From the NCBI RefSeq assembly GCF_016827605.1, contig NZ_JAEPJQ010000003.1, positions 434,001 to 498,000 of the forward strand: a stretch of 64,000 bases of DNA, in the 5' to 3' direction. Numbering within the stretch: position 1 is the stretch's first letter; each line of letters begins with the position of its first letter. Positions 15,624 to 48,974 of this stretch are shown piece by piece. The notes beneath the pieces were generated by a model that did not search any database, was not told the DNA's origin, and saw only the letters and a program-made list of their open reading frames with translations. This DNA comes from Hyunsoonleella ulvae (lineage in GTDB: Bacteria; Bacteroidota; Bacteroidia; Flavobacteriales; Flavobacteriaceae). The position numbers and the translations under genes are program-made.

Positions 15624-15706
15624 AGTATCTCCTGTAATAGAAAACCTAATGATAACTTCTTAATTAGGTAACTTTTAGGTAATCTTAAAAACTAATATTT
15701 GTACGT

Positions 15707-15788
15707 CTCAAAATTTAGTTTGGTTAACTTTGAGTTAGTTAGTTTATTAAAAGCTTTGGTTGTATCCTCTTTCAACTAAGGCTTTTTT
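15707..15788 (+). ncRNA. Candidate small RNA with intrinsic terminator (locus A)
   Basis: A promoter-like AATATTTGTAC (15694-15704) is followed by an A/T-rich stretch with TTTAG repeats and a 13-pair stem (15750-15762 with 15773-15785, two G-U pairs) ending in six T. No reading frame fits between. The stem can also simply terminate the upstream lipoprotein gene. The terminator overlaps the 3' end of the convergent gene at 15772. The segment after TATTTGTAC resembles that at 48872. Confidence 0.35.
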
Positions 15789-16278
15789 CGTTTAGCACGG
15801 TTTCCATGAAAGTGTATAGGTCATACATTTCTTGTTTACTAGAATCTCTTCCAATCCGGCCAGCGAAATAAAGAGCAAACCAAATAATTATCATCATAAC
15901 CATTAAGCTAACCTGTAACGTGAAATCTTTTTCGAGATTCCAATTTGTGTAAGCCCAAATAGCAAAAGCAATAAAAAGAGAAGCTACTACAAAATGTAAA
16001 AACATAAATAAGGTCCAAATGGTAGGGTTAGGTCCAAATAAACCATGTAGTAAGCAAGAGTTGGCATCAACCTCATCTATTTCCAAGTGTAGTTGAGGGG
16101 ACCAAAAATGCTGATCCTTTTTAGGGTATTTAATAAATACATGGTTGTCAATTCGGGTTACCGTAAAAGCGGTTTGAGAAGATTTTAAATATTCGAAGCG
16201 CTCCAAAATAAACTGATTGTTTTCTTGTAGTTCTCTTTTAAATCGAGGTCTTAAAACAATATCGTTTTTAGCTGGCAT
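15772..16278 (-). CDS. Conserved hypothetical membrane protein, two membrane segments
   Basis: I do not recognise the family. The ATG at 16278 gives 168 residues; a longer frame to 16344 exists but would overlap the der promoter and start. The N-terminal 85 residues are soluble and charged (an all-beta look with alternating strands), followed by two hydrophobic helices (about 90-112 and 118-140) and a short charged tail. The lack of a signal peptide and the later hairpin suggest an inner membrane protein with both ends cytoplasmic. It is divergent from der. The 3' end converges on the terminator of the upstream lipoprotein gene. Confidence 0.75.
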   Translation of the reverse strand: MPAKNDIVLRPRFKRELQENNQFILERFEYLKSSQTAFTVTRIDNHVFIKYPKKDQHFWSPQLHLEIDEVDANSCLLHGLFGPNPTIWTLFMFLHFVVASLFIAFAIWAYTNWNLEKDFTLQVSLMVMMIIIWFALYFAGRIGRDSSKQEMYDLYTFMETVLNEKSLS

Positions 16279-31797: not shown

Positions 31798-31841
31798 AGG
31801 TTGTTTAACAATTAGGTAATACCTAAAAAGAATAGACCCTG

Positions 31842-31849
31842 TATATTTG
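31842..31849 (+). promoter_or_regulatory. Promoter core TATATTTG upstream of a structured non-coding stretch
   Basis: An exact TAnnTTTG match 45 bases after the response regulator stop codon. Transcription should begin at about 31854, at the base of a hairpin. No clear -33 element is seen. Confidence 0.5.
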
Positions 31850-31997: not shown

Positions 31998-32612
31998 ATG
32001 CGAAACATTTTATTTGGTGTTGTTATAACACTAATCATACTTTTTACATTTAAATATTGTGGAGATAAAAAAGAAGAGAAAATAGTTCTCAAGGAAAGTT
32101 CTTCATTAATTCAAGAGCAAGTTAATAATGTTGGTAAGTTGGTGGTCACTGAAGGGTATTTTAGCGAAGTATTTACTTATAGCAATTCAAAGGGTATATT
32201 TGGAGACTTGCTTTCGGCAGAGAAAAAAGCTCTAGTTGTAGTAAATGCTGAGGTAGTTGTGGCTTACGATTTAAGTAAGATTGCATATAATATAGATGAA
32301 GCTAACAAAACGTTAACAATAATAAGTATTCCCAAAGAGGAGATTAAAATACATCCAGATCTAGAGTACTATGATGTACAGGCAGATTATTTAAATCCTT
32401 TTGAAGCAAAAGATTATAACGAGATTAATAAGACGGTAAGACAAGTATTGTCTAAAAAAATTGAACGTTCTGATATTAAAACCAATGCCAAGAATAGGTT
32501 GATAAGTGAATTGTCTAAATTTTATATTCTAACAAATTCATTGGGATGGACATTAAACTATAATAGTAGGCCAATATTAAACCAAAAAGATTTGGAGACA
32601 ATTACCTTATAA
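31998..32612 (+). CDS. DUF4230 protein, single N-terminal membrane anchor
   Basis: A 204-residue protein with an N-terminal membrane helix (about 3-19) and a DUF4230 domain (about 40-185) that includes LVVTEGYFSEVFTY, VVVNAEVVVAYDLSKI and the family's IISIPKEEIKIHPDLEYYDVQ block. The domain should lie on the periplasmic side. Function is not known for the family. The 3' end overlaps the convergent rhodanese gene by 11 bases, and no terminator lies between them. Confidence 0.88.
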   Translation: MRNILFGVVITLIILFTFKYCGDKKEEKIVLKESSSLIQEQVNNVGKLVVTEGYFSEVFTYSNSKGIFGDLLSAEKKALVVVNAEVVVAYDLSKIAYNIDEANKTLTIISIPKEEIKIHPDLEYYDVQADYLNPFEAKDYNEINKTVRQVLSKKIERSDIKTNAKNRLISELSKFYILTNSLGWTLNYNSRPILNQKDLETITL

Positions 32613-42026: not shown

Positions 42027-42068
42027 CAACTAAACAAAAATCACTAATAAATAAAATTCAAACTCAAT

Positions 42069-48760: not shown

Positions 48761-48871
48761 CTTTAAGATATTGAAACACAAATGCTAAGAAAATCTTAAA
48801 ATTTGTATGGATAAGTTAAACATTTGTAAACTGTTGTAAGGAATTGAGAAAAATGTCGTCTATTTGTACAA

Positions 48872-48940
48872 GTTTAGTTTAAGTTTAGTTTAGTTAAAGC
48901 AAAAGCCGATGAAATTACTACAAAATCATCGGCTTTTTTT
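48872..48940 (+). ncRNA. Candidate small RNA with intrinsic terminator (locus C)
   Basis: A promoter-like TCTATTTGTAC (48859-48869) is followed by repeated TTTAG units and a perfect hairpin AAAAGCCGATGA / TCATCGGCTTTT (48901-48912 and 48926-48937) ending in a T run. No reading frame fits. It lies 110 bases after the hydrolase stop and converges on the patatin gene. The TATTTGTAC...TTTAGTTT...TTAGTT...AAAGC order is shared with locus A at 15.7 kb. The hairpin could also be only the hydrolase operon's terminator. Confidence 0.4.
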
Positions 48941-48974
48941 AGTGTTTTTTTACTTATATTGGAAGTAATATTGA

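Follow-up and report, generated by a model that had tools for sequence, protein, structure and literature searches.

Loci A and C, two short intergenic stretches of the window (the whole 64,000-nucleotide piece of Hyunsoonleella ulvae DNA that was analysed), are best read as genes for trans-acting small RNAs (sRNAs) that repress mRNAs of glycan utilisation by pairing at their start sites. We give this reading a probability of about 0.6. Each RNA, roughly 75–85 nt long and made from an autonomous gene, would begin just past a sigma-A-like TTTG box and end at an intrinsic terminator. Its single-stranded, C-poor leader would bear tandem seeds (UUUGAGUUAGU in A, UUUAG repeats in C) that would pair with short 5′ leaders of mRNAs, in the ~35 nt before the start codon, and so block translation initiation. 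The predicted targets are SusC/RagA transporters for A, and SusC, glycoside hydrolases, lyases and sulfatases for C. Since the seeds match the starts of polysaccharide-uptake mRNAs, we think that A and C probably switch those proteins off; production of the RNAs, their pairing in the cell and their repressive effect are all deduced from sequence.

Anatomy of the two loci

Locus A (15645-15791) and locus C (48815-48939) both lie on the + strand and are built alike: a box resembling a promoter is followed by an unstructured leader poor in C and then by a terminator hairpin. The preliminary description had reported an order of short blocks at A that recurs at C, and both are present. In A, TATTTGTAC at 15696 is followed by TTTAGTTTGGTTAA, TTTGAGTTAGTTAGTTT, a hairpin and a T tract; the hairpin has 14 pairs, one more than the 13 originally counted. 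In C, CGTCTATTTGTAC (with TATTTGTAC at 48861) is followed by GTTTAGTTTAAGTTTAGTTTAGTTAAAGC, a 12-pair hairpin and a T tract. Short blocks prove little by themselves, and TTTAGTT alone has dozens of copies within the window; it is the conservation of the aligned sequences that indicates that the cassettes exceed chance. A loose genome-wide search for the C block (TTTAGTTTAGTTAAAGC-like) gave 78 matches versus 71 for the reversed control and, because this is no excess, the block is not a dispersed repeat in this genome.

The promoter-like part of A (15667..15701) is formed by the upstream element GGTAAC, a 21-nt spacer and the −7-type box AATATTTG, with TAAC and TTTG conserved in nine congeneric genomes. 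The leader runs from the putative RNA start, placed by reference to the box, to the hairpin (15706..15748) and is unstructured and poor in C. It contains the proposed seed TTTGAGTTAGTTAGTTT (15729..15745), the best conserved leader block of the congeneric alignment. The terminator hairpin with its T tract (15749..15788) was recognised by folding and by a scan for intergenic terminators. In C, the upstream element GTTAAACATTTGTAAAC (48815..48831) is near-invariant in nine congeneric genomes and the box CGTCTATTTGTA (48857..48868) has a core that is invariant in relatives. The leader with the proposed tandem seed GTTTAGTTTAAGTTTAGTTTAGTTAAAGC (48869-48900, with the listed feature at 48872..48900) is nearly invariant except for insertions of whole repeats, and the terminator hairpin and T tract close the cassette (48901..48941). 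Both loci fold better than 200 out of 200 shuffles, with z values of −3.1 for A and −3.4 for C. The leader blocks with the highest conservation, UUUGAGUUAGU in A and GUUUAAGUUUAGUUUAGUUAAA in C, look like candidate pairing seeds.

Both loci are found between convergent genes. A is flanked by a + strand gene for a choice-of-anchor I protein upstream and a − strand gene downstream, and C by a + strand alpha/beta hydrolase gene upstream and a − strand patatin-like gene downstream. Several scans of the organism's own genome covered 1.26 Mb of the 4.06 Mb assembly, examined as stretches, in which the promoter spacing of A is not the general promoter form. The same spacing is seen at 31815-31849 of the window, where GGTAAT-N21-TATATTTG lies upstream of an open reading frame at 31998. 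As a regulon motif, the upstream elements GTTAAAC and GTAAC were discarded, only locus C being close in the 1.26 Mb. No family of Rfam (release 15) matched the window or eight homologous loci at the gathering threshold, no tRNA or tmRNA was detected within the window, and a literature search with the sequence words returned nothing relevant.

Conservation and genomic position

In nine congeneric genomes for each locus, the alignable span of ~130–145 nt begins some 50 nt before the TTTG box and ends with the T tract. The leader and promoter region are thus conserved together with the terminator, and the opposite outcome foreseen in the preliminary description, namely that relatives would have the terminators but nothing conserved before them, did not occur. 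The hairpin of C covaries: 98.9% of its cells are kept paired and four pairs have changed on both sides. The hairpin of A varies mostly through G-U pairs, and its covariation is not above that of shuffles; the conserved G-U pairs imply that the + strand is the functional one. Among congeneric species, TTTAG repeats have been gained or lost in C as complete units. Locus A mostly retains the block TTTGAGTTAGTTAGT, even where the TTTAGTTTGG part has been lost (genomes G007, G004 and G003).

The genes on the upstream side vary among relatives while the cassettes of A and C remain, and we therefore consider both to be autonomous units. Elsewhere, the position of A is between era and der (about ten other genera) and that of C is beside lysS (many genera); in the genome of the window, the choice-of-anchor gene is inserted between era and A, and three open reading frames separate C from lysS. 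Covariance models built on C (R1) and on A (R2) were run over 249 Flavobacteriaceae genomes. The search for relatives of both loci that had been proposed at the outset was rewarded for A, as R2 found homologues in ten other genera with E values of 1e-14 to 1e-7 (best E=2e-14). A second group of R2 matches has E values of ~1e-5 to 1e-3, and many of these have another GC hairpin, AAACCGGTG, and carry two copies in tandem, e.g., ATTATTTGAGTTAGTCTAGTTTGAGTTAGTTTAG. By eye, the spacing (G/T)TTAAC-N21-nAnnTTTG returns in the A relatives of other genera in both groups, and TTTGAGTTAGT is retained or doubled in most of them. The core of C is matched exactly in named genomes of Hyunsoonleella, Jejuia and Gaetbulibacter, and its element GTTAAACATTTCTAAA is retained in other genera about 40 nt upstream of the box. 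In the order-level search with R1 and R2, no match outside Flavobacteriaceae reached E 0.01, and one genus, possibly Flavobacterium (g147), had no R2 match at E<=0.01. A second strong copy of R1 or R2 was not found in the 1.26 Mb of the window's genome.

A third sRNA-like locus occurs in six congeneric genomes (L091-L096: G006, G004, G001, G009, G007, G002). It comprises a conserved promoter region, a variable spacer, the block GTTTAAGTTTAGTTTAGTTAAA and a AAGACGAC hairpin. This GTTTAAGTTTAGTTTAGTTAAA is the 3′ block of the C leader, identical in the third locus of the six relatives; a pattern search of the window's own genome gave an exact match at locus C only. The initial suggestion of a family of small RNAs is the one that best accounts for promoter region, leader and hairpin being kept jointly within the genus and, for A, in some ten further genera. 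It is more accurate to regard A and C as two related designs, and not as copies of a single gene, because the upstream element, the seed and the syntenic position differ for each.

Complementary leaders before start codons

The complement of the A seed, ACTAACTCA, was searched for in 99 relatives within 30 nt of ATGAA and compared with the reversed pattern. It is enriched in the rest of the family (113 versus 39) and in other families (49 versus 22), and weakly in the genus itself (24 versus 15, p 0.10). In many genera, the complement is located just before the ATG of SusC/RagA transporter genes. Nine of the ten genes scanned are SusC/RagA (eight above the curated cut-off and one just below it), and the tenth gives a weaker match to a TonB receptor. 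A 26-mer leader, ACTAACTCAAATAATTGTTTTATGAA, is identical across seven genera and every copy precedes a SusC-type gene; further SusC genes have only the complement in common with it. Such identical leaders may reflect common ancestry of one SusC subfamily. The predicted duplex of an A-type RNA and the 26-mer leader has 17 continuous pairs. In the organism's own genome, the seed of A is complementary without interruption, over 15 of 15 nt, to the SusC leader at G000:C17:301020 (gene at 298075-301020). Several genomes with the 26-mer leader have no A match by the covariance model; in these, the pairing RNA is possibly derived from an mRNA 3′ end.

For C, the complement CTAAACTAAA occurs within 25 nt of ATGAA 55 times versus 20 for the reversed pattern in Hyunsoonleella (binomial p 3e-5), and there is no enrichment in the rest of the family (93 versus 94) or in other families (30 versus 50). 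Only the genus whose C has the TTTAG-repeat form thus shows the enrichment. We think that this contrast between the genus and the rest is the best control, since a start codon is part of the forward pattern and is absent from the reversed one. Among 18 readable genes from 20 loci, chosen by eye as leader-like, ten are of glycan-utilisation types, namely SusC-type (2), GH16 (2), GH9, GH43, GH2, PL28, a sulfatase and a 3-keto-disaccharide hydrolase. A random draw of 20 ATGAA genes from the window's genome contained no such type, and the resulting Fisher p of 9e-5 is indicative only, because the loci were hand-picked and the controls come from different genomes. Two genomes (G003 and G005) are rich in C-complement leaders, yet have no clear C orthologue by BLAST. 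Within the organism's own genome, predicted duplexes of A and C with 1057 start regions of the 1.26 Mb were no better in energy than those of shuffled leaders, and the complement words are not enriched across 5′ leaders generally in the same 1.26 Mb. In a different family of the order, three tandem lipoprotein genes have in common the leader ACTAACTCAAATAATGTTGAATTATGAA (G047:C1:1731000-1740000, L328).

Seed words at mRNA 3′ ends and related RNAs

The seed words are also found at the ends of genes. The words most enriched just upstream of 226 intergenic terminators are AGTTAGT, GAGTTAG, GTTAGTC and TTGAGTT. TTGAGTTAGT has 24 copies in the genome versus 8 for the reversed control, and stands 1–40 nt before the terminator in ordinary transcripts, among them those of SusD, leuB and M16 protease. 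Of 54 loci collected from 11 genomes, 18 have the A seed word before a terminator in sense orientation, after susD, leuB, M16 protease and other genes, and 5 have it reversed; the reversed copies follow rho, the gene for cytochrome oxidase subunit I (ctaD) and a YceI-like gene. Gene names in this survey are a reading of translated ends, except for the genes scanned with the family library. Pairing at start sites gives no explanation for seeds or complements before terminators; 3′-end-derived sRNAs and sponges are possible.

Individual cases of these words are diverse. Two leuB-type isopropylmalate dehydrogenase genes from two genera (L288 in G192, L290 in G242) have TTTGAGTTAGTC 7–8 nt past the stop codon. 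Three A seed words about 250 bp apart lie in an array of similar units at G036:C1:1022536-1023062 (L272, L282, L292). At 42027 of the window, on the − strand and past the end of a gene, a further terminator is immediately preceded by TTTTTGTTTAGTT, which is a lesser example of this 3′-end word. Three susD-type genes (L243 and L253 in the window's genome, G000; L266 in G205) carry the A seed in the 3′ UTR just before the terminator, so that one operon type may hold both the seed, at its 3′ end, and the complement, in the susC leader.

The 3′-end words could have another meaning, in which the UUUAG/GAGUUAGU block is a protein-binding 3′-end element for stability or 3′-end processing, and A and C are decoy RNAs that titrate the protein. 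The position of TTGAGTTAGT before ordinary terminators and the variation of the C repeats by whole units would fit such an element, as would the likeness of the motif to (G/A)U1-3AGU, the word bound by Musashi-type RRM proteins. We nevertheless find this explanation unlikely, as it leaves the complementary leaders unaccounted for and the motif also appears reversed before the terminators of rho, the yceI-like gene and ctaD, where an RNA-binding protein could not read it. Moreover, no PF00076 (RRM) match was obtained in the genome, with a Bacteroides control genome matched, and no PF17209 (Hfq) match, with five control genomes matched. The absence of both proteins weakens hypotheses of a bound protein; Musashi-like RRM binding and an Hfq partner were rejected on these grounds.

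Copies in both orientations beside terminators and inside SusC leaders could instead point to an element of the DNA itself, given that TGAGTTAGTCA is nearly palindromic (TGA-N5-TCA) and might bind a dimeric protein near gene ends or promoters in either orientation. This is very improbable in our opinion: the TTTAG repeats of C do not fit the palindrome, the tandem copies of the A family are always in sense before the hairpin, and sense orientation prevails near terminators (18 versus 5).

It is equally doubtful that A and C are sRNAs whose main targets are RNAs with the complement in their 3′ ends (rho, ctaD, yceI-like), the SusC match being incidental. In the window's genome, the complement ACTAACTCAA does stand 8–10 nt before the rho terminator, with a matching arrangement in another genus; the cases are few, however, and complements close to start codons are more numerous and concentrated in glycan-uptake genes. 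The rho 3′ UTRs themselves contain GACTAACTCAAATTAAC, an A-seed complement, just before the terminator in the window's genome (G000:C20 ~41789, L261) and a longer complement match, ACTAACTAACTCAAAC, in the other genus (L110, G017).

Functionless bidirectional terminators with a chance promoter-like box are already disfavoured and have hardly any probability left: although each site has a + strand gene on one side and a − strand gene on the other and TAnnTTTG boxes are common (217 upstream of genes in 1.26 Mb), ~130–145 nt, including the region upstream of the box, are conserved across genera with different neighbours.

Repression by start-site pairing also has a precedent. For the FopS RNAs of Bacteroides, which bind the RRM protein RbpB, a block of translation initiation on SusC mRNAs has been demonstrated (PMC11697453). 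FopS/GibS RNAs of Bacteroides thetaiotaomicron (PMC11697453; PMC7366714) are ~65–70 nt long and mostly intergenic, with sigma-A-type promoters, terminators and several paralogues per genome; their seed, located close to the 5′ end, forms duplexes with SusC-type mRNAs where translation begins, and one member derives from an mRNA 3′ end. A and C resemble them, by sequence and conservation, in having their own sigma-A-type promoter and intrinsic terminator. Pairing at SusC starts may be a further likeness: complementary leaders are enriched and occur before SusC genes, which suggests by analogy the same mode of action, but the duplexes within the organism's own genome are not above shuffles. On the other hand, the A and C leaders have tandem repeats and lack the R1/R1′ consensus seed GTGTTTTTCATAGTATTAGATTTAAGGTTAACAAA (PMC11697453), with only a short AT-rich resemblance by eye, and the genome, with no PF00076 match, has no counterpart of RbpB. 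Because of the different seed and the missing RbpB counterpart, we do not claim that A and C belong to FopS.

Closer in taxonomy, Rfp18 and other independent sRNAs of Flavobacterium psychrophilum are intergenic, with mapped transcription start sites and the sigma-A −7 box TAnnTTTG, and Rfp18 itself uses the third of its stem-loops for pairing and influences metalloprotease mRNAs (PMC9723704). A and C share with Rfp18 the intergenic location and the bacterial family but differ, when compared with its description, in that each has one stable hairpin, which is the terminator. They also differ from Hfq-dependent sRNAs, as their genome has no Hfq. In the literature searched, Rfp18 (proteases) was the sole function-tested flavobacterial sRNA found, and no sRNA controlling flavobacterial polysaccharide loci was encountered.

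Flavobacteriaceae are major degraders of algal polysaccharides. We propose, more tentatively and at less than even odds, that marine flavobacteria possess a glycan-foraging regulon of tandem-seed sRNAs that work without an Hfq or RRM chaperone. The seed would be carried by A, C, the third locus and the 3′ ends of susD and other mRNAs, its complement would be the SusC-type 5′ leader, and its origin would be independent of the FopS network of Bacteroides. The system would be small enough for a direct test by compensatory mutations, as the seed has 17 nt and the leader site 15 nt. If this proposal is true, SusC transporters in two groups of Bacteroidota would be regulated by unrelated sRNAs at the same mRNA position.
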